Source of the DNA: Dendrophyllia cribrosa
Taxonomy: Eukaryota > Cnidaria > Anthozoa > Scleractinia > Dendrophylliidae
Direction: 5' to 3'
Assembly: GCA_024195265.1 (NCBI GenBank)
Contig: JAJLRJ010000006.1
Location: 6,379,639-6,443,638, forward strand
DNA: 64,000 bases
Positions 3,448 through 60,254 of the stretch are shown piece after piece; position 1 is the first letter of the stretch; each line of letters begins with the position of its first letter. The notes under the pieces were generated by a model. The model ran no database searches. It saw nothing but the letters and a program-made list of their open reading frames with translations, and was not told where the DNA came from. Made by a program: the position numbers and the translations under genes.

Positions 3448-4008
3448 CTACAGTAAATAGAAACAAAATATTATTTGATTACGAGCGTGAAATCAACCAT
3501 TCGTTAAAATGAACGTGTGTGAAAAAAATGATCCTTTTCAACTGATTTGTTTTTGTTTTGTCGCTTCATTAATGTAAATAAAACTATTCACAGGGATACA
3601 CATTTATTATTTTTAACGCAACCACTACTCTATCACGCGCTGACCAAGAAGCTTGGGCACGTGATTCAAAGGTTAGAGGTTGAGGGCGGGGATTGTGATG
3701 GAGATCGCGGGTTAGAATCACGGAGCGCTAGCGGAGAGCTTGCTCGCAGACTCTAACAAATATAATAAAGGAGTTTTAATAAAAAAGTCCATGATAATTG
3801 GATATAATTGGATAATTAAATATAAAACCTTTTGAACACAAAAACGTTTGAAGACCACAAAGAAGTTGATCGCATTCCCTGGCTTCATTAAAAGCCAACG
3901 TAGGTGTCTACTTACAGCTATCCAATTTAAAAACGTTGTTATTGGACAGCCATGTGACAGCGCGCCAATTACATAAGAAATGGGCAAGCATATGTTATTG
4001 ATATGATT
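3448..4008. other. Non-coding; no gene seen
   Basis: The part at 3640-3750 is GC-richer and contains GGGTTAGAATC, which resembles a tRNA B box. I could not find a matching A box or a fold, so I do not call a SINE. Confidence 0.35.
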
Positions 4009-19961: not shown

Positions 19962-20428
19962 CAGTGGAACCCCGCTTTAAAGGCACCCGCTTAATACGGA
20001 CACCCGCTTATTACGGACAGTTTCGTATGTCCCGACAAAACGCTCATATGTTTTCTCTTAAATTAGCCCGCTTAATATGGACACCGCAATACGGACAACG
20101 GACACGCTCTCGTACAAAACCAACCTCGCATTACAGACACTGGTTATCTGTGCACTGTATAACTGTATAATTTCATTTGTCACGATTATGTGTTAATTGT
20201 GGTTGTGTTTTCACTAGGACAATTTTAGCTAGATAAAGTCGGAAAAGTCCCGGAAATACAGTGAAAACACCTCGTCTTGTGTCTAGCGAGTTTATAAAAA
20301 TGCAAGCTGTTTTCACAAGAAAATAACAAGGGATTTTCTCGCCTTCATGACCGGAAATTCACGCAAAGTTATACTACCTTGCGAGGGGTTTGACAAGGCG
20401 GTAAGTTCAATGCGGTGAGTTACCAATT

Positions 20429-20848
20429 TGAATTTTCAAAATCTTGCCGGCCAGATCTTGAATTTTCAAAATCTTGCTGGCAAGATCTTGAATTTTCAAA
20501 ATTTTGCCGGCAAGATTTTGAATTTTCAAGGTCTTGCCGGCCAGATTTTGAATTTTCAAGGTCTTCCTGGCAAGATCTTGAATTTTCAAAATCTTGCTGG
20601 CAAGATCTTGAATTTTCAACATCTTGCCGGCAAGATCTTGAATTTTCAAAATCTTACTGGCAAGATCTTGAATTTTCAAAATCTTGCCAGCTAGATCTTG
20701 AATTTTCAACATCTTGCCGGCAAGATCTTAAATTTTTAAGATATTGCCGGCTAGATCTTGAATTTTCAAGGTCTTGCTAACAAGATCTTGAATTTTCAAA
20801 ATCTTGCTAGCAAGATCTTGAATTTTCAAAATGTTGCTGGTAAGATCT
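20429..20848. repeat. Fourteen copies of a 30-bp self-complementary satellite
   Basis: The unit is about AATTTTCAAAATCTTGCCGG followed by CAAGATCTTG. It contains the palindromes CAAGATCTTG and CTTGCCGGCAAG, so the array reads almost the same on both strands and is open in several frames. About three degenerate units reappear at 25052-25142, at the outer end of the opposite arm. Confidence 0.9.
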
Positions 20849-25967: not shown

Positions 25968-26446
25968 TTATTTGGTACAAACGACACAAGTCAGTTCATA
26001 GCCCTCGATATACGGCTTACATGGTAAGCCGTAAGTGCAAGATGACTGAACTACGTACAGCAGTGATCCATCTGTGCTACGATGGCTTCCTGGGATAACC
26101 TCAGCATCCTTATCAACGCACACGTAGTCATTGGAATGCGCATGTCCGTAGTGAGAAGACATCAAGTACCCATGGTACTCTCTGGTCCAACCCAAAGGGC
26201 ACTTGTTGGTTGCAGGGATCATCATCTGAGAACCGCGTGATCTAACGTAACACACGGTGCACGGTGCATCATGGTCATTGAGATTGTTGCTAAAGCCTGG
26301 AAAACGTCCTGACTGGTACTCAGTGCCGTAAATGCCCGCTGTACCCTGCCAACCGCTGATGTACTTGTCATATATGGGATTGTTGGGGAGACAGAGAAAG
26401 TTAGAACCTCCGCCGTGGTGTGCGTGGTAACCACTTCCCATTACTC
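25968..26446 (-). CDS. Collagen gene exon 6: C4-type domain and stop
   Basis: After the acceptor TACATAG it encodes about 159 residues to TAA at 25968-25970. Conserved features are GSNFLCLPNNP, HDAPCTVCYVRSRGSQMMIP, an EYHGYLMSSHYGHAHS segment and the CVVCTK end. Multiple Cys fit an extracellular disulfide-bonded domain. The 3' UTR runs into the composite repeat element. Confidence 0.9.
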
Positions 26447-29400
26447 CTATGTACAATTTGAAATAAAAACATGAATGATAATAAGATCCAAGGCTCCTAG
26501 GAGCCAACTCGTGAATACTAAAAACTCTGAATAAAAGATTCTGCACTGAAACGTAGTCGCTTGGAGTGCGAACATATTTGAGCAAGGCTTGGTTTTAATT
26601 AACGACGTTTGGACCTTCCCCTTTCCTAGGCGATTTGTTCCACCGATTCCCCACCCCCTGCGTCCAACTCCCACCCCCTGCGTCCCATGCTACCCTCCCT
26701 CCAGTGCCATCCCCATGGGTAAGGCAGATGACATTACATATCACGAGCTTAATGTTTACAGCCGATCGACCGAAATTTTGTTCCAATGCTATAACTGGTG
26801 GAACTAGTGTGTAGAGCTGACAATATACGATTTTCACGATGGCGTCATTTTACTAGAACTTTTTGTATTATTTAAATCAATATTTATACAGGAGCAACCA
26901 GTTTAGCATAGCTAGTTAGGTGCCTCCCTATAGTTATTGTCTAGTGAAAATACAAAACTGAATGCATGGCTGGCACTACGGCAAAGGGCAGATTTATTAA
27001 TGGCCAATATTTCGACTAATAGTATTAGTCTTCTTCAGGGCCAGGGCTATACTGAAAGAAAATATTGTAACGGCTCCTCAAATTTGAAAATTACATTGTT
27101 ATAAATGATTGGCTAATACATGACATGTAGACAGCGCACTTGTAAACATAAGATAAAAATAATATATGACATATATAGTGTATATAGTGTACTCGCTCGA
27201 GTAAAGAGCGAGTCCGTTCCTTTCCATCAATCTCATATTTAGCTCCAAAACCGCAGTCATCGCTTCATAAAAACGATAAATACAACCAGAAAGTTCAATG
27301 CTCTCCAATCCTTGGATGGTCGGACATAAAAGCCTGTTACGGGCGGGTTACAGGCGCCCGTTGGCTTGGCTTAGCAGCCAGGCCGTTTGGTTCAAAACCC
27401 TCTCGTCAGGGAGGGACACGAGCAAAACAATCGTTGCAAAACTGGATTCGCACGAGTACCCAGGGGACGCCTTGTCAACATTCGAGCCACTCGCCCGGTT
27501 GTTCGAAAAGTTGGCGGGACTACTTTTTTCTTGTTTCAACCTCAAATTCCTTCTATAACGCCGAGAATAGCCGCGGTTGCACGAAGCACTTTCGATTTCT
27601 GATACAAACCAACGAGTGCGTAAATACCGTACAAAGCACTGCCCATGCTGTAATTTGTTTATTTTACACAAACTGAGATTTGTGATTAGACGAAACGTTT
27701 TTTTCACGTGTGAGAAAGTCGTTTCGCCATTCTAATTGGATTGGAACCCCGAACGGGGTATTTCAATAGAACATCTCGATAAGTATGATATAATCTTATA
27801 TTTGAACTGCGGAAAAACATGAATGAAATTTGTGATCCTCGCAGTGTGCTCTCAACTTAAGTAGTTGAAAAAACAACCTGAAAAAAATTCAGGCTTGAAC
27901 AGGATTCGAACCCGTGACCTTGCGATACCGGTGCAATGTTCTATCCACTGAGCTATCAAGTCACATGGATAGATGGTCAATTGTGAGTTTAAAGCCTGTC
28001 TCATTCACAGTAAATCCCTAATTAGTCTAGGCCAATTTCTTGTAACTTTGAAGTCTATAAATGAAATTTTATATCACCTGATAATCAAGAGGCAGGCTCT
28101 ATTATTTATTGATTCCACGAAACTCGTGCTGGCCATTAAATCGAACGATTTAGCAAATTTCCACCGGTTTTCCGTGGTGCGGACTCTTATTTACCACGAT
28201 TTACGTCATCACATGGTCAAAATGTTGTGGACTCAATGAAAAGATTCGAAGACAACACACAATGAAAAGATTCGAAGATAAATCTTAACTAGTAGGCAAT
28301 CTAATATACCTATTTATTTTCCATGGACAACCGAATTTCTGAGGCAAACCTTCTGAAGGATCTCTTTTCTTGACAGCCGCCTCGAGCCTTCGGCGGCGTT
28401 GCTTAGAAAACGTATCAGTAACGATGGAAAATAAAAGAAAACATACAAAAACAAGATGCAAATCAATGCCCTGAAGTTAATAGACGATACAGATTCCCCG
28501 ATGTAAACAGATTATTTTAGGAATCAAACTTTCTCGCCACAAAATTGATTTTCGTGGCCCCAGAAATTCTAGAACGCCCGCAATGCATCACGGTAAGTGA
28601 CGATGGGCCATTAAGATAGGAAATACCAAACACTGCTTGCATACAGAAAATCAGGATAAGTAACTGAGCAAAATCTCGAAGTAAAGAGGAATATTTTATG
28701 CACGATTTATTACCGGTTCGCGCGATTTTAGGCAGTATTTTCATTTCATGTGAGCTGCGCGTGCTACCTTTTTATTTCAAAATCAGCTGACGCATGCGTT
28801 AATGCATGACGAGTGTAAGTCGCGCGCGTATGCAGATGAAAACGCTTTCTAGCCTTCTTGATCTATTTTTGTTTTTGTTTTCAGAGGACGCTTCTCCTTT
28901 CTTACCATTATACACAACAGAGGCATCTCCGGAGCAGTTAGTTCGTCCCCATCGGTTGTACCTCACACCTGATAGCGCCTGTCCTTGAGGTCCTCTATCT
29001 CCTTTAGGACCGGGGGATCCCATTGGTCCAGGAATTCCAGTCAGACCAACATCACCTGATGAACATTGTAGAGTCAGTCTGAGAAGCTTATTACGTAGGA
29101 TCACGTCATGTTAGTTTTGTTCGAGTTGGGCTCGATTTCACCACTCTAGTGTATCATAGTCTAGCGTAGTTTAGTATAGTAAAGTCTAAAGTTAGTATGG
29201 TTTCTTCATTCTTTCTGTTCTAGCATTGGCTCATTTCCTAAATGCGTCTGGTAATCGCTGGTTATCGAGCGTATGGTTGGAGAAGAACTATACGATGCCA
29301 CCAAATGAAACCAAAGCACTCTATTCCCCACCCGCTTCTCCAGCAAATGTTGGTTCGTGTTCGGTTTTTGAACTTCTTCCTCCTTACCCCAAAAAGGGTG

Positions 29401-45922: not shown

Positions 45923-46965
45923 GAAGGGTTCTTTTGACCGTTTTGACGTCAGGCTTCTTATTGCTCGTCTCAGCAAGACGCACATTTGACTTTTATTTCT
46001 TCTATTTTCACCAGGCGAATCGATTTTGTCAAAGCAAACTTAACTTAGAACGTGCCTTGACAAAGCATCAGACGATCGTGTTACACGTCTGGTGAAATTT
46101 TATCCCCAAGCCGAAAGCCGCATACAACAATGACTGTGGGCGTGTTGTCAGGAGTACGAATAGTTCCTATACTTTCTTCTCGGCACTTCGTGTCTCGTCT
46201 CTTCGCTTTCCCGAGGCTAACACTGTCGGATTTCGGTTTGAGCTTAAAATTTCACCATTTGCCTAACACGATTGCCTGATTCTTGCTCAATCACGTTCAT
46301 ATGTTTGCTCTAACAAAATCGATTCACGGTAAAAACAGAAGAAATTACAATTAAATTTGACTCTTCTGTCCTCAGTGCCAGACGTCGAGATAAGAAACAT
46401 GGCACATAAATTATTTGGATAAAGAACACGTCAGCCTATAAGAGAGAGTATCAGAGGATAAGAAACCAAAAAATATTTTGAAAGGCGCAATTTACAAAAA
46501 GAAAATTCGTGAAAACTCGACTGAGAAAACATCGCTTGTTGAGTACAAGACTCTAACCGTTCACAGGTGATGTGTAGCGTAAATGATAACTTTGAAAATT
46601 TGTTTTGACTTTCATGTCCGGCAAAAAATACTTTCCGAAAACGTAAGTTATAACTCCGGAGTGCCCACCCCCTGGGGTTATAACCTTTTGATTCCCGCGA
46701 TACTTGTCCGAGATATCCATAATGCACCATTTTCAATGGGCATAACGCCCTGCTGTGTTTTCTGGGTACCCTGTGCAGACACCTACAAAAAAAACGCATT
46801 CCCTGCCTTGTTTCATGGATATCCTGTGCAGTCTTTCAAGGGCTAATCTCGAGACTTGTAGTAGACTGTACTATGTACGAAATATCACGTCTCGATCAGT
46901 TAAAAACAAAAATTTCGCTGTCGTACAGTGTGAAGGTATGGCGTCACAATTCGATGCCAGCGCGG
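45923..46965. other. No gene supported
   Basis: Overlapping frames on both strands at 46431-46846 cancel out. No domain is seen. Confidence 0.35.
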
Positions 46966-47591
46966 TAAGGGACGGACCATTAGAAAAGTGATGGGGGGGG
47001 GGGGGGGGGGGGGGGGGATTTTCAGCTTGCACGAATTTTTTTTTTTCGCCCATTGCTTGTGTAGGATTTTTTTTTGCAGGTGAAACCCTCTGCACGAATT
47101 TTTTTTTTCAGACAAATATTGCTTTGTTTTTCATTTACTAATTAAAAAAGGTGTAATACTTAAAAACCATTTTTGACCATTACGTATATCTGAAAAATAT
47201 ATATTAGGAATTGTCCGCTACGTTGCACAAGACTATATCCTATTATGGAACGCATGAAACAAACACAACTTGACACCAGAATTACACGCCTGTTGTAGAA
47301 AAAATATGCAGTGTATCTTGAATTCATTGAGACATACACGAGACCTCCTCTCTACAACACTAAAAGAACTGTTCCTTGTGTCAGAAAATATCATACATGC
47401 TATGAAATTAAGAATAAAGCCTCAGAAAGAAACACAACTTAACGTCGGATCGAAACTACACCAATGCTATTGGTTCAATTAAACGAGCCAATGAGAAAAC
47501 GGAACATTCGATCCTTCCCAAGAGTACAAAAGCGGCAAACATTTCATGTACAATTAACGGAATAATTTCATATTATTCCGCGAGACAGTTA

Positions 47592-47659
47592 CTTATGGGA
47601 GCAACTGATGAGGTTCACCTAAGAACCGAAACTCGAGTCTTGCTTAAGAAAAACGTAAG
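47592..47659 (+). ncRNA. Type I hammerhead self-cleaving ribozyme
   Basis: All core elements are present in order: CUGAUGA (47605-47611); stem II GGUUC/GAACC, five pairs with an ACCUAA loop (47612-47627); GAAA (47628-47631); stem III A-U and C-G closing a UCGA loop (47631-47638); and C at 47639 before the cleavage site. Stem I pairs GAGCAA (47599-47604) with UUGCUU (47640-47645). After an internal loop (1 against 8 nt) it continues as CUUAUG (47592-47597) with CGUAAG (47654-47659). Very short stem III and a looped stem I are known for ribozymes of Penelope-like elements and animal retrozymes. It is predicted to self-cleave if transcribed. Confidence 0.88.
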
Positions 47660-47789
47660 AATTCACTAGCGTCCGTGAGATTTTCAATACAGATCACCAT
47701 ATCTGTTCATGCCATGTCGGGATGCAATAACGCCATGATGAAACAACACTTCTCAGAAACAGAACTATATATAAAACAAGGAGCTAAAA

Positions 47790-48077
47790 CAGAGGCGGAT
47801 CCAGGGATTTCTGAAAGGGGGGTCCGGGTTCATGCCTGCCCGGAAATTTTTCCAATTTTACCCTCTGAAACGCCATTTCCAACACTCCTGAAACTCGAAA
47901 AGCGTTTGTTAAGTCAAAAAATTGACAATCAGTCAATTGGTGGAGGTGAAACAACTACGTATAAAACAATTTTATTCTATTATTTTTATGAACCACAAGG
48001 GAGACACAGGTCTGAAAGGGGGGGGGGGGGGGGGGGGTCGGGGGGGGGGGTCCGAGCCCCCCCTGGATCCCCCACTG
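47790..48077. mobile_element. 288-bp MITE with 5-bp duplication
   Basis: The ends are CAGAGGCGGATCCAGGG and (complement) CAGTGGGGGATCCAGGG. TAAAA flanks both sides (47785-47789 and 48078-48082). G-rich runs lie inside both ends. An accidental 261-codon frame runs across it and the next MITE. Confidence 0.75.
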
Positions 48078-48216
48078 TAAAACATAAACTGCAAGAAGTC
48101 ATGATCCCAATAGAGACACGGCAGCTTCAGACTTTGATCTTAGACGCCTACATCCGTGATAAAGATCCACTTTCTCACAAGTCTTGCACACCGCAGACTT
48201 TGACACTAAATCACGG

Positions 48217-48371
48217 TAGGGGCGTAGCCAGGAATTTTTCAGAGGTACGCACAATCAATTTCCAAACACTCCCCCTACCTCCTCCCCCACCCTCAAGTCC
48301 CAAATCTTTCTTTTTTCCCGACTTTTTCAGGTACGCACGTGCGTACGTGCGTACAGGTAGCTATGCCCCTG
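48217..48371. mobile_element. 155-bp MITE with 5-bp duplication
   Basis: The ends TAGGGGCGTAGCCAGG and (complement) CAGGGGCATAGCTACC resemble the MITE at 47790. CACGG lies on both sides (48212-48216 and 48372-48376). Five-base duplications are reported for some hAT-type and Transib-type groups. Confidence 0.7.
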
Positions 48372-48882
48372 CACGGGCTGAGAGAGTGACTGATCCTAGC
48401 ATATTCATAACAATAACAAAAACTGCAGCCGATCACTACATATCTTGCAACAAAAGTTAGCCAAAGAAGCCCTAACATATGCCAAGAGAGCTAGCATAAC
48501 GAAGGCATAGAGAAACAATAATTCCATAAATGGCTACACAGCATGAAAATCTCTTGTCACTTAAGAGATTTTTATCCCAAAGATCATCAAAGAGTCATAC
48601 AATACATATCGAGCATGCAAAACTGAGACAGAGAAAATAGTGACTAGTCACAATTCTATATTGGTGATCTAAAGGGAACAAATATCTCGTAGACCTTCTT
48701 GGGAAAGCATTTCTAAAGGCTTCTTTATACATTTTGCGACTAGCGGGAGTCGTGTTTGGCCTGTCATCTTTATAATTGCTGCGGAACGAGCGTAGCGAGT
48801 GAGCAGCAACATAATCAGGATTTAAGAGAAATATATGAGAAAAAAATATAAGCTACGAAAAATCTCGATTTGATCGCTTTTT

Positions 48883-48975
48883 ACCAGAATTCACTGCGTC
48901 ACGCACACATTTTGGGCCAGAATTCACTGCGCCACGCACACATTTTGGGCCAGAATTCACTGCGCCACGAACAAT
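48883..48975 (+). repeat. 36-bp tandem repeat, about 2.6 copies
   Basis: CCAGAATTCACTGCGYCACG followed by CACACATTTTGGG is repeated at 48885, 48921 and (partial) 48951. A further 27-bp doublet (GAGCTGAGCGCGTGGRGACG) lies at 49197-49250. Confidence 0.85.
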
Positions 48976-49825
48976 AGCCTCGCTTGCTGCTTCAAGCTGT
49001 TGGCTGCGAGATTTGTAATATTTTAGTCCAACATGTGCCAGTCGTAATCGGATCTGAAGTGTCGAAGACTACCGCGAGTTGAGCGAGGACTGTGAGGCAT
49101 GGTGATAGGACCGTTGGATAGCAAAGATTTTCGAAGATTGTACGGAATAAAAGACAAATTTATTTTGAAATCACTCCGACAGCGGTCGATGAGACTGAGC
49201 TGAGCGCGTGGGGACGCGAAATCTGAGCTGAGCGCGTGGAGACGCGAACACAATACGGCTAGCTAGTAACGCAACATATTCATTATCAATAATTAAGTTA
49301 AACCTAAATTTTCACACCTTCCTCGTGGTGAACGCGTCCTTTGCTCAACAATATTCTACAGACATTGCAAGAACTTAATGCGTGAATTACAAAACAAAAT
49401 TAGTCCTGATCAGCTGGAGTTTTCGTCGATTCATCCCGGTCACATTTGCTTTGCTTCCCCTCAAAAAACGAAAGAGAAAATTCTGTAATACCAGCGAGGC
49501 GATAAAACAGCATTATTACAACAAATTTACCGCAGCAATTACTATCTTTTGGATACACTAGTACTATTTATAAATAATAGTATAGGAAGGCCCCAAGAAT
49601 GTTTTGAATTTTTGAAACGCCAAGAGCGCTATTTTCAATAGGCACTTTGGCAGCTTTTATATATTAAATAACAACCACAATAGGACTTCTCCTTTTTTTT
49701 CCTGGCATTTTCCCTTGCACGAATTTTTTTTTGGTTTATTCCCCACCCCCCCCCCCCCCACCCCCCCCCACCCCCCCCATCACTTTTCTAATGGTCCGTC
49801 CCTAATTTAGCTGTAATTGATCATG

Positions 49826-50268
49826 AGTTTGGTGGACGTCAATCAAAGGAAAAGAACTAAATTCCGACTAGATTTCGAGCGAAATAACAAAATATTGAGC
49901 CATTTTATCAGCAAAGAGATATGAAATTTTTTAAATAACCTAATTCGAGGTCAGTTACAGTTTTCAAGAAAAATTTCATTCAACACGATAAAAATTGGCG
50001 CTCCATGAAGCGGCTTTATGATACGCCTGCCATTCATACATGATCGAGTTTCCAAATCGGAGTAACGTGCAGTGAAGTTTAAACGTTTTATTTAAACTGC
50101 GGTATCTTTTACATGGGCTTGAAAAGTAATTTTAATAAAGCTTTTACATTCTCTTAGCTTGCAATAATATTGACGATTCTTGGGCTCTGTTTGTTTGAAA
50201 TCCTGTCAGTGAGAATTCATTTTAACGGCCTTTCTTTCATTGACGTCCACCAAAACTTATCTTTATCC
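49826..50268. mobile_element. Inverted-repeat element, GTGGACGTCAAT ends
   Basis: GAGTTTGGTGGACGTCAATC (49826) faces ATTGACGTCCACCAAAACTT (50250). A related end is at 36517-36535. No coding is seen inside. Confidence 0.5.
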
Positions 50269-50896: not shown

Positions 50897-51020
50897 CCAG
50901 GTCGGTCGAATTCCCTACTTAGCGAGACCAACTTTGAGTTCCAAAATGCCGGCGTTTACCCGTGGAGAGGGGGAGGGTAGGGTAGGAGTGCCGGAGTGCC
51001 CGATGATCGCGCTTGGAATG

Positions 51021-51211
51021 GCCCTTATCGTAGTTGAGTACGCCACGCCAACATATCAGCGGTTTCTCGCTTTCTTGACCCTATAGTCTCATTTTGATGT
51101 TTACGAGAACCTCTGACGACGATGAGCGTAAACATTAAAACGCAACTATAGGGTCAAGAAAGCGAGAAACCGCTGATATATTGGCGTGGCGTACTCATCT
51201 ACGATAAGGGC
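51021..51211. mobile_element. 190-bp foldback element
   Basis: Arms of about 75-80 bp (GCCCTTATCGTAG.. inward to ..GACCCTATAG) are nearly perfect inverted copies with about 35 bp of loop. No coding. RNA from either strand would form a long hairpin. Confidence 0.85.
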
Positions 51212-51894
51212 TATTGACTGACAGATAAGGCGCGGGTTTCTTCGGTACCAAAACTGTTTGAAAGAGCACCGGATCGCAAGGTATGCCAGCATTCTGCTGA
51301 AATATATTAAAACTATATATGTTATGAATGCTTAGCGCCATCCTAAATCAAAATCGTGTGATGTCTTATGAAGTTATACCTTAAAAGCAAAGCCCTTTTT
51401 GTCTCTGTAACGCGTTTTAACAGGTCGCTGTTGGTTTTCGTGAAGGACAAACCGGTGGTTACTGTGTTGGTGGTGAAACATTTACCAAAAAACGCCACTG
51501 GCGAATTCAGATATGTTAAGTAAATAGGGGCGGGATGTTATGTTTCATGTAGTTTAAGGTAAGTATCATTGTTAGTATCGAATGCAATAGAATCGTCTAT
51601 TTTGAACACGTAATTCGGATCACACCGAGAGTCCATATAGTCTCTTGCTTCAACTAAATTACATTCCCTTTGGATACTCGTAGATAAACATTTGACTTAC
51701 AGTAAAACTGGCTAGTATGTGTAATCTCTCGCTTTATCAAACAATTCTAGTTTCCTTAAGTGCTCGATTCGTTTGTAGTATATTTTAAAAATATCACATT
51801 TATATTATTGTAATTGTTGTTTGTGTTTTAATTTAAAAGCAGCAATGTAATCCACCGGTTACTTTTGTCGGTCGACAACCGTTCGTCAGCAAGA

Positions 51895-57700: not shown

Positions 57701-60254
57701 GCCTCAGGTAGCTATAAATCCAGCCGGACAGCCTTTACAACAGCAAGCACTGTTGCAACCAACACAGCCTCAAGTAAACCAACCTGTGCAACCAACACAG
57801 CCTCAAGTAAACCAACCTGTGCAACCTTTCCAGTTGCAGTCTGGAATACAACCGATCCTGGCTCAAACACCACCCTATGCAACTCAAGTACCTTTACAGC
57901 CGCAGTATCCTGGCCAGGTACAACCTACTTATCAGCGCTTAGTATATAACCAAGGTATGGTAATGTAATAAAAAACGGCTGCATTATCTTAAACACAGCA
58001 AAAATTCACTATACAACATTAATCAACAAAAGTTTTTCTACCGTAGCCTTTTTTCAGAAAGGCTAATTAAGTAAATGACAAACTAGTAAATTAAAAAAAA
58101 AAAGAAAATCATCATTGCCCGGAAGGGAGACATGATCATACATAATCTCGTGGCATTGCCTGTTAATGAAAAAGACAGTTTACCTAAAAGTACAAAAATA
58201 CAAACAACGTCTTTGGCAATATCGCGAATGAACTTTACAAATTGCGGATCGAAAAAACGACTACTGAAAGTCAGGCACCTTGAAAAATAGGATCTTTGAT
58301 CTCCTGCCAACCTAATCGTCGATCAAACTTCATTTCAAAAACATGCTCCACATCTCTCGCCCCCCCCTCCTATCCCCCCCCTATCCCCCCCTATCCCCCC
58401 CTATCCCCCCCTATCCCCCCTATCCCCCCCCTATCCCCCCCCTATCCCCCCCCTATCCCCCCCTATCCCCCCTATCCCCCCCTATCCCCCCCCTATCCCC
58501 CCCTATCCCCCCCTATCCCCCCCTATCCCCCCTATCCCCCCCTATCCCCCCTATCCCCCCCCTATCCCCCCCCTATCCCCCCCTATCCCCCCTATCCCCC
58601 CCTATCTCCCCCCCCTATCCCCCCCATCCCCCCTATCCCCCCATCCCCCCCATCCCCCCCCCCATCCCCCCCCCTATCCCCCCCCCCCATCCCAAATACA
58701 AGTTCGTGAGCTCACAATAAGGAAAAGCTTTCCCATACAAGTTGTTAAGGCATATAGCTATTAGCAAATTACAGAAGACAACAATGACTATATGAAATGA
58801 AAAGAAATGACGAAATGATTCTCGCATTTGATGCAATTGTGAATAACGCCTGAAAAAAATCATGGCTTACAACGGAATTCGAACCCATAGCTTTGCGTTG
58901 TTGGTACAATGCTCTACCAGCTGAGCTACGGAAGCCTGGTATGTTGTGGTGTCTGGAACTCACACACCATTTGTTCATGATAAGAATGTTATAACAATGA
59001 ATATATGGTTTAAGTAGTTTTTAACTACTTATAAAATTTTACTCCACAGCTTTACCACTCCAGCCTGGAGCGGTAGGACCAATGAAGAAACAAAAAGGCG
59101 AGAAAGTACCAAAAAAAATACCATCGAAACCTACCGCCGTTAATGAAAAGACAGAGAGTACAGAGAAAATGAATAAACCTGGTAAAAGTGGAAAGGAAGA
59201 GGAAGAGAATCCCGATAGTCAAGGCATTGAAAAGTCTGGTGACGTTAGTAAAACAAAAGACACAGCAGATAAGCACACGTCAAAGAAGGTTAGGAAGAAT
59301 AAATATGAAAAAGAGGCTTACAGCAAAGAGAAGAACGTTAGCGATAATAAAGACAGAAACGAGGCTAATAGCAAAGATAAGAAGGTTAGTGATAATATAG
59401 ATGAAAACGAGGCCGATAGCAAAGACATGAAGGTTAGCGAAAATAAAGTTCGAAACAAGGTTGTTAGCAAAGACAAGAAGGTCAGCGATAATAAAGATGA
59501 AAGCGAGGCTGATAGTAAAAACATGAAGGTTAACGATAATAAGGATCGAAAGAAGGTTGATAGCAAAGACAAGAAGGTTAGCGAAAATAAAGATCGAAAC
59601 GAAGCTGATAGCAAAGACAAGAAGGTCAGTGATAATGAAGATGAAAGCGAGGCTAATAGTAAAGACATGAAGGTTAGCGAAAATAAAGATCGAAACAAGA
59701 ATGTTAGCAAAGACAAGAAGGTTAGCGATAATAGAGGTGGAAACGAGGCCTATAGTAAAGACAAGAAGGTCAGCGATAATGAAGATGGAAACGAGGCTGT
59801 TAGCAAATACATCAAGGTTAGCGAAAATAAAGATGGAAACGAGGCTGTTAGCAAAGACAAGGTCAGTGATAATGAAGATGGAAGCGAGGCTGATAGTAAA
59901 GACATGAAGGTTAGCGAAAATAGAGATCGAAACAAGGTTGTTAGCAAAGACAAGAAGGTTAGCGAAAATAAAGATGAAAGCGAGGCTGATAGTAAAGACA
60001 TGAAGGTCAGCGAAAATAAAGATCAAAACAAGGTTATTAGCAAAGACAAGAAGATCGGTGATAATACAGATGAAAGCGAGGCTGATAGTAAAGACATGAA
60101 GGTTAGCGAAAATGAAGATGAAAGCGAGGCTGTTAGCAAAGACAAGAAGGTTAGCGATAATAAAGATGAAAGCGAGGCTGATAGTAAAGACATGAAGGTC
60201 AGCGATAATAGAGATGGAAACGCTGACGAGGAAAGAAGGTTAGAACTACACTGA
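54599..60254 (+). CDS. Secreted ShK-module protein with Pro/Gln-rich and Lys/Asp repeat regions
   Basis: Six coding exons (54599-54731, 55709-55831, 56266-56376, 56502-56645, 57178-57954, 59050-60254) all join in phase 1 and total 2493 bp, giving 830 residues. Order: signal peptide (1-21); an ShK-type module with six Cys (45-85); a four-Cys partial module (86-122); a second six-Cys ShK module (123-170); another four-Cys segment (about 175-200); a Pro/Gln-rich region with QPQQ..GVVQ repeats (about 200-429); and 19 units of a 16-residue Lys/Asp/Ser repeat (about 520-824). ShK folds occur in anemone channel toxins but also in many matrix and enzyme proteins. Size and repeats argue against a venom peptide. 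An extracellular matrix or skeletal-matrix role is only an inference. Confidence 0.85.
55138..55522. mobile_element. Foldback element in ShK intron 1
   Basis: The outer arms (GATGAGCGGATAACTTTATT at 55138 and its complement ending 55522) and an inner pair (ATTGCTGAGAGCAACGTAGT at 55253 with its complement ending about 55430) form one nested hairpin. The centre is GC-rich. Confidence 0.75.
55524..55600 (+). repeat. 13-bp tandem repeat
   Basis: About six units of TTTGCATAATACT / TTTGCATAATAAT directly right of the foldback. Confidence 0.85.
55709..55831 (+). CDS. ShK gene exon 2: complete ShK module
   Basis: The acceptor is TTTTTTTCCTTTCAG and the donor CAAG/GTTAGC. Six Cys lie in the ShK order, including YC, a KNC and the closing CKFTCKMC. 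Confidence 0.88.
56266..56376 (+). CDS. ShK gene exon 3: partial four-Cys module
   Basis: The acceptor is CATCCTTTTAG and the donor CGAG/GTTAGG. The segment keeps the terminal CPHTC but has only four Cys. Two of the six ShK cysteines are missing, so one disulfide is lost. Confidence 0.8.
56502..56645 (+). CDS. ShK gene exon 4: complete ShK module
   Basis: The acceptor is CTTTTTTTAAAATAG and the donor CCAG/GTAAGT. Six Cys end with CMLSCAMC. Confidence 0.88.
57178..57954 (+). CDS. ShK gene exon 5: partial module and Pro/Gln-rich region
   Basis: The acceptor CCCAG has a weak pyrimidine tract. A four-Cys segment closes with CPLAC and is followed by about 230 residues dominated by Pro, Gln and Val in imperfect repeats (for example QAVQPQQTGV). 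Donor CAAG/GTATGG. It is probably disordered. Confidence 0.85.
58358..58690 (+). repeat. (CCCCCTAT)n-like minisatellite
   Basis: About 40 units of TATCCCCCC with unit-length variation lie in the last ShK intron. The other strand (ATAGGGGGG) has dense G runs and could form G-quadruplexes. Frames made only of Pro, Ile, Tyr and Ser here are artefacts. Confidence 0.92.
58790..58940 (-). mobile_element. tRNA-derived SINE, same family as 27770
   Basis: The minus strand has a tRNA-like head (GTAGCTCAGCTGGTAGAGC; GGGTTCGAATTCC) followed by TTTTTTTCAGG and GCGAGAATCATTT. The head could fold roughly like a Val tRNA, but the acceptor and anticodon stems have mismatches and position 33 is C, so it is not a functional tRNA. 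Confidence 0.7.
59050..60254 (+). CDS. ShK gene exon 6: Lys/Asp repeat and stop
   Basis: The acceptor is TTTTACTCCACAG. A Lys/Glu-rich linker leads into 19 units of SKDKKVSDNKDESEAD-type sequence (59322-60233). Eighteen units are 16 residues and one is 15. SKDMKVSEN and SKDKKVSDN forms mostly alternate, which suggests a 96-bp duplication unit. It stops with TGA at 60252. Highly charged and probably disordered, with many Ser next to acidic residues. Confidence 0.88.

Follow-up and report, generated by a model that had tools for sequence, protein, structure and literature searches.

The window, i.e., the whole stretch of 64,000 nucleotides of Dendrophyllia cribrosa DNA that was analysed, harbors a type I hammerhead ribozyme located within a transposon bounded by terminal inverted repeats (TIRs). 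The coordinates of the ribozyme, of its helices and of the surrounding features are reported in Table 1. The conserved core and the three helices that had been claimed by a sequence-only reading of the window were confirmed letter by letter, and the identity of the motif as a type I hammerhead was borne out at the sequence level. The motif contains the type I core (CUGANGA, GAAA and UH before the cleavage site), its loop II reads ACCUAA, and the internal loop of stem I has 1 and 8 nt; the pairings of the three helices, with stem I open, are all present, though without minimum-energy support in the monomer. The 2.8-kb TIR element recognized by the same reading was also recovered, together with the TAA triplets flanking it.

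Table 1. Features of the ribozyme and of its carrier (positions are those of the window; a dot indicates no strand).
Feature	Position	Strand	Remarks
Non-autonomous PIF/Harbinger-like TIR transposon with ribozyme unit	46969-49802	.	2,834 bp; TAA on both sides
Left terminal inverted repeat GGGACGGACCATTAGAAAAGTG	46969-46990	+	TAA before (46966-46968); 353 exact 28-base ends in the genome, control 0
PLE-related region, upstream of the ribozyme	47148-47575	+	aligns to L066 1087-1496
Ribozyme-bearing unit, ends approximate	47214-48776	+	also outside the transposon; head-to-tail 1,456-bp repeats in L065
Perfect hairpin CGGAATAAT-TTCAT-ATTATTCCG, upstream of the ribozyme	47558-47580	+	also in L061 and L062
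Type I hammerhead, short stem III	47592-47659	+	letters; RF00163, 22.8 bits; 290 exact genome cores
Outer stem I, CTTATG with CGTAAG	47592-47597 with 47654-47659		sequence
Inner stem I, GAGCAA with TTGCTT	47599-47604 with 47640-47645		sequence
35-nt segment CUGAUGA / stem II / GAAA / stem III / UC	47605-47639	+	sequence; genome pattern count
CTGATGA core box	47605-47611		sequence
Stem II, GGTTC with GAACC	47612-47616 with 47623-47627		5 bp, loop ACCTAA; sequence
GAAA core box	47628-47631		sequence
8-nt palindrome ACTCGAGT	47631-47638	+	continuous stem III possible between two ribozymes; sequence and unconstrained two-strand fold
Stem III, A-U and C-G, loop TCGA			sequence
TC before the predicted cleavage site	cleavage between 47639 and 47640		sequence
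Nested MITE-like insert GGCGGATCCAGGG...CCTGGATCC, ends approximate	47794-48073	.	absent from the L065 unit (alignment)
Second nested MITE-like insert GGGGCGTAGCC...GCTATGCCCC, ends approximate	48219-48369	.	absent from the L065 unit (alignment)
Right terminal inverted repeat	49781-49802	-	TAA after (49803-49805)

The covariance search that had been proposed for this motif did yield a match to RF00163 (Hammerhead_1) at positions 47599-47645 (22.8 bits, E 0.003 over the 351 bases searched), but below the gathering score of that model, which is 34 bits; on the curated model alone the motif is thus borderline. At the gathering cut-off, Rfam returned no hammerhead in the window, and in the search of the whole window HH9 was the sole hammerhead model listed (19.5 bits, E 4.2). 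A descriptor combining the core and the stems matched once in the window, while 30 Mb simulated with an order-1 Markov model gave no match. The core pattern CTGATGAGGTTC-N6-GAACCGAAACTCGAGTC was found 290 times as an exact match in the genome (151 + 139) versus 0 in the reversed control and, on the basis of this comparison, the hammerhead of the window is a real one as far as its letters tell; the previous statement that it stands alone is, in turn, contradicted by the same count. A query of 321 bases retrieved 903 genome candidates; 40 of them were scored, all of these (40/40) matching. Loop II is variable among the genome copies, with ACCTAA, ACCTTA, ATCATA, ACCAAA and other types, and the viral contigs contain no match to the core pattern. 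Since the loci fetched for comparison (indicated by L and a number) were chosen by means of the exact core pattern, the conservation of the core among them is partly built in.

The minimum-energy fold of a single window copy does not comprise a complete hammerhead, the probability of stem III being near zero. The palindrome ACUCGAGU pairs with that of a second copy over 8 bp, and in the unconstrained co-fold of two window copies the minimum-energy dimer is a dimeric hammerhead with all its helices. The same outcome was obtained with two copies of L080; for L064 and for the copy from a Penelope-like element (PLE), the dimers contain the shared 8-bp stem III and stem II, with an incomplete stem I, and the co-fold of the AAUCC form gave no hammerhead. 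The energy gained on dimerisation is ordinary, being equalled in 93 of 200 shuffles; for this reason the stability of the dimer was dropped as evidence and the agreement in shape alone was kept. Outer stem I consists of CUUAUG/CGUAAG in the window, of UACAU/GUGUA in L080 and of UACAU/AUGUA in L064; this pairing was assigned by visual inspection and with the help of the folds of L080 and L064. In a gapless alignment of eight rows, 98.1% of the pair cells hold standard pairs, against 20-46% when the rows are slid; over the same eight rows, compensation affects only one of the 13 pairs, and the observed covariation values are reached by 64 of 500 shuffles, which makes the covariation of the stems thin. 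In dimeric form, the ribozyme is probably capable of cleavage. Dimeric hammerheads of PLEs were reportedly described by Lunse et al. in 2017; as in those, the weak stem III would suit cleavage by two molecules.

Transposons of the PIF/Harbinger type possess terminal inverted repeats and 3-bp TAA or TTA duplications. Both features are common to their non-autonomous members and to the element of the window, which we take to fit this family on account of its TIRs and 3-bp TWA duplications; it differs in that it bears a retroelement-derived ribozyme unit, and no transposase has been tied to it. For 15 of 30 loci of the family, both ends fall within the sequence that was fetched; matching 3-bp duplications are present in 14 of the 15 (13 TAA or TTA and one TAG), the exception being L003. 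Contigs C1-C3 carry 61 exact cores and, counting exact TIRs only, a TIR is located within 2.5 kb of 27 of the 33 cores with the ACCTAA loop versus none of the 28 with other loops (16 ACCTTA, 6 ATCATA, 5 ACCAAA and 1 ACTAAA). Apart from this, L082, one of the ACCAAA copies, has an identity of 91-92% with the window family along some 470-545 nt. The exact TIR pairs on the same contigs span from 151 to 9,498 bp, and 13 out of 23 hold an exact core. L105 (151 bp) and L106 (734 bp) are TIR shells devoid of the ribozyme unit, the latter running past element position 243, near the start of the unit in the window family, and in L107 the unit is inverted and cut inside the ribozyme. The existence of shells without the unit and its inversion in L107 indicate that the ribozyme unit is a cargo of the TIR element. 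The longest frame in the 3,001 bases read of a TIR pair of 6,353 bp encodes 121 aa. The exact TIR pair of 9,498 bp (G000 C1:38841880-38851377) is a candidate autonomous partner.

The ribozyme-bearing unit, whose size is about 1.1-1.46 kb, also occurs outside the TIR element. The sequence-only reading had proposed a search for tandem copies, and none of 150-450 bp was found at 46500-50000; in L065, units are arranged head-to-tail with a spacing of 1,456 bp. Three of the L065 ribozymes share a strand, and the opposite strand has two, in one of which a core letter is changed. A head-to-tail junction similar to that of L065 is present in L102, which shares with L103 and L104 a common 3' end, the 5' ends being different. 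Diverged relatives are represented by L064 and, L082 excepted, by the L079-L086 group; their identity to the flanks of L005 is 67-72% upstream and 59-73% downstream of the ribozyme. Stem I is defective in L061 and L062, where its inner strand is largely lost, and in the L063 family, where its 5' strand is replaced. In L061 (C1:13943000-13947000) and L062, the ATCATA ribozymes are embedded in inverted repeats, convergent and about 1.2 kb apart; the arms of the L061 repeat are 1.69 kb long, and five convergent ATCATA pairs are listed genome-wide, two of which were read.

The sequences of L077 and L090 diverge right after GTC, and the idea that this breakpoint at the cleavage site records cleavage in vivo was discarded, the divergence at L090 being due to a foldback insertion. 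In its extended version (L094, positions 3557-4003) the insertion has ACCTAAACCC ends and lies exactly after the hammerhead GTC; a telomere-like reading of ACCTAAACCC was likewise ruled out, these being the ends of the foldback insertion.

When the core pattern was modified at one pair of stem II, 8 matches were found in the genome (control 0), 7 of which keep stem II pair 2; L067, in which this pair is unpaired, was judged a chance match. In L066, L070 and L071 a hammerhead of homologous sequence adjoins a PLE ORF, i.e., it is in the pLTR position; an ATG begins 16 bases downstream of the cleavage site and, in L070 and L071, is the start of an ORF. No such ORF follows the ribozyme of the window. 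The ribozyme of these three loci is 84% identical to that of L002 over 51 nt (80-86% over 40-61 nt among the compared loci), with stem II pair 2 changed from G-C to U-A and loop III changed from TCGA to TATA, which is still palindromic. The similarity extends upstream: with the ribozyme excluded, the PLE-related region of Table 1 aligns to L066 with a score of 146.6, while 500 shuffles gave a mean of 89.6 (sd 11.0) and a maximum of 122.8; downstream of the ribozyme, no comparable alignment signal with L066 was detected in the window. Because of the related PLE ribozyme and of the upstream alignment of about 430 bp, the ribozyme most likely descended, judging from these similarities, from a PLE rather than from a retrozyme.

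As for the proteins of these PLEs, one reverse transcriptase (RT) frame of the group matched RVT_1 with 26.4 bits (E 6.5e-6), under the cut-off of 29.6, and two of the three PLE pieces matched no Pfam family; out of three database homologues compared with RVT_1, two pass (33.0 and 30.9 bits) and one is below the cut-off (24.4). The RT of L066 is 30% identical (E 2e-25) to an RT of the genome that immediately precedes a GIY-YIG domain. For one PLE protein piece, the identity to named Acropora proteins amounts to 71-75%. No GIY-YIG domain was seen in L066-L071, and the RT frame of L066 (positions 1-1043) runs into a stop just after the RT region; for the latter reason, the L066 group may represent a Penelope-like group lacking the GIY-YIG endonuclease. 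In several of six loci, GIY-YIG domains are followed by strings resembling what we take to be the minimal PLE hammerhead. Searching the window with the PLE protein pieces yielded nothing beyond chance matches (best E 3.2), in agreement with the earlier remark that no reverse transcriptase adjoins the ribozyme; in the absence of an RT or GIY-YIG match, the window element is regarded as PLE-derived and not as a PLE. The suggestion that the motif is the leftover of a Penelope insertion thus holds for the origin, since a PLE of the same genome has, at its 5' end, relatives of both the ribozyme and the region upstream of it, but not for a one-off event, the unit being a many-copy cargo of a TIR element, with related units elsewhere and one locus in tandem.

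The reading that is preferred here, and that is considered rather likely, is that the hammerhead belongs to the PLE lineage and passed from the 5' region of a PLE to a non-coding unit, and from this to a PIF/Harbinger-like TIR transposon copied as DNA, in which it is a passenger. The PLE 5' region, consisting of the upstream sequence and the ribozyme without the reverse transcriptase, would have given rise to the non-coding unit, which would still form head-to-tail repeats; one unit would have come to sit within a non-autonomous TIR transposon, and a transposase provided in trans would then have copied it throughout the genome. In sense transcripts, two ribozymes might pair via ACUCGAGU, forming one 8-bp stem III, and the resulting dimer would represent two complete hammerheads, cutting after GUC.

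The passenger status of the ribozyme was evaluated on the copies anchored on stem I. Among the 100 listed of 248, the 3' strand of stem II (GAACC) is kept in 71, some of which have other changes in the core or in loop III; 14 copies have AAUCC and 9 have AAUGC, both breaking stem II, and 6 show other changes in this strand. The 23 copies with a broken stem II form two subfamilies recurring on several contigs, so that the ribozyme is apparently not needed by the transposon; since these copies still spread, it is probably a passenger, and the most likely interpretation is that it has no selected role in the TIR transposon. In a study on a reptile PLE (PMC11167929), hammerhead mutants still insert in vitro. 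A function under selection in the transposon, for example the cleavage of read-through transcripts or the release of a non-coding RNA, is unlikely. The 71 copies retaining GAACC, although some of them are changed elsewhere in the core or in loop III, might speak for it, as might the identity of the 47-nt ribozyme to ten distant relatives (96-98%), higher than that of the flanks (67-72% upstream and 59-73% downstream); however, the search pattern prescribed 29 of the 47 positions, so that much of this contrast comes from the sampling. In addition, the TIR copies are young and subfamilies with a broken stem spread. For a class II transposon to have kept a working, dimer-acting retrotransposon hammerhead that now processes the transposon's own transcripts to its own benefit appears similarly doubtful.

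It is very unlikely that the TIR family was the older home of the ribozyme, with the PLE-like units derived from it. In its favour, an empty site searched for with the joined flanks as query was not found among the 40 scored of 580 candidates, whose matches cover the 3' side only, none including the first 21 of the 101 query letters; against it, shells without the unit exist (L105 and L106), L107 holds the unit inverted, and none of the 28 non-ACCTAA cores on C1-C3 lies near an exact TIR.

Little probability is also assigned to the possibility that the ribozyme belongs to a metazoan retrozyme unit, one of the two origins put forward by the sequence-only reading. In its favour, the motif belongs to type I, the genome contains further type I hammerheads with high scores, and one related locus (L065) is in tandem; nevertheless, the unit is about 1.1-1.46 kb long rather than 150-450 bp, no tandem repeat of the latter, retrozyme-like size was found at 46500-50000, the ribozyme differs in sequence from the high-scoring hammerheads of the genome, and its upstream region is PLE-like. 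The reading as a lone retrozyme unit is not supported. According to the literature on metazoan non-LTR retrozymes (PMC7229834, PMC7761336), these share with the window unit the type I hammerhead and the occurrence in stony corals, and those of axolotl also the short stem III with a palindromic tetraloop, while size, context and ribozyme sequence are different. Type I hammerheads scoring up to 56.2 bits, retrozyme-like by sequence, are present at G000 C1:6376673 and at other loci (L031-L060), some of them forming inverted pairs whose members are separated by about 200-270 bp.

That a string resembling a hammerhead arose by chance in a transposon is also very unlikely: the score is below the Rfam cut-off, the monomer misfolds and copying by the transposon would multiply a chance motif, but the same fold exists at the 5' end of a PLE with stem II compensated, and L080 and L064 retain outer stem I in spite of a different sequence.

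Under the preferred reading, a PLE-lineage ribozyme carried by a TIR transposon, both partners are of known kinds and, as far as the searches show, their pairing is new; in a literature search by titles and abstract openings, with subscription journals mostly outside its coverage, no hammerhead inside a TIR DNA transposon was found to be described. PMC11167929 places the hammerhead of PAc of Anolis and of other PLEs at the pLTR-ORF junction and describes PLEs as arranged in tandem or partial tandem. Junction position and tandem arrangement are alike, and the window copy differs in lacking the RT, in its 2-bp stem III with a palindromic tetraloop and in its carrier, a TIR DNA transposon.

Animal genomes contain many dispersed hammerheads whose spread is poorly explained; for one Acropora genome, the reported number of type I motifs exceeds 6,000 (PMC7229834). 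One hammerhead lineage is now tied to a concrete vehicle and, since this vehicle is a cut-and-paste transposon, the copy number of hammerheads need not reflect an RNA-based mobility. If the copies cleave, dimer-acting ribozymes would be scattered through coral transcripts.

Other features were observed in the window. Positions 51017-51215 hold an 89-nt inverted repeat, 92% complementary and with a 21-nt loop, to which several miRNA models match below the cut-off; many miRNA models also match below the cut-off, on both strands, at 20425-20822, which is perhaps a repeat. Two tRNA matches over the cut-off, possibly SINE heads, are located on the minus strand (27891-27962 and 58864-58935). The minus strand also harbors, at 25968-26594, an ORF similar to coral short-chain collagen C4-like proteins, and a window protein of 157 aa is 78% identical to a protein of Desmophyllum pertusum.
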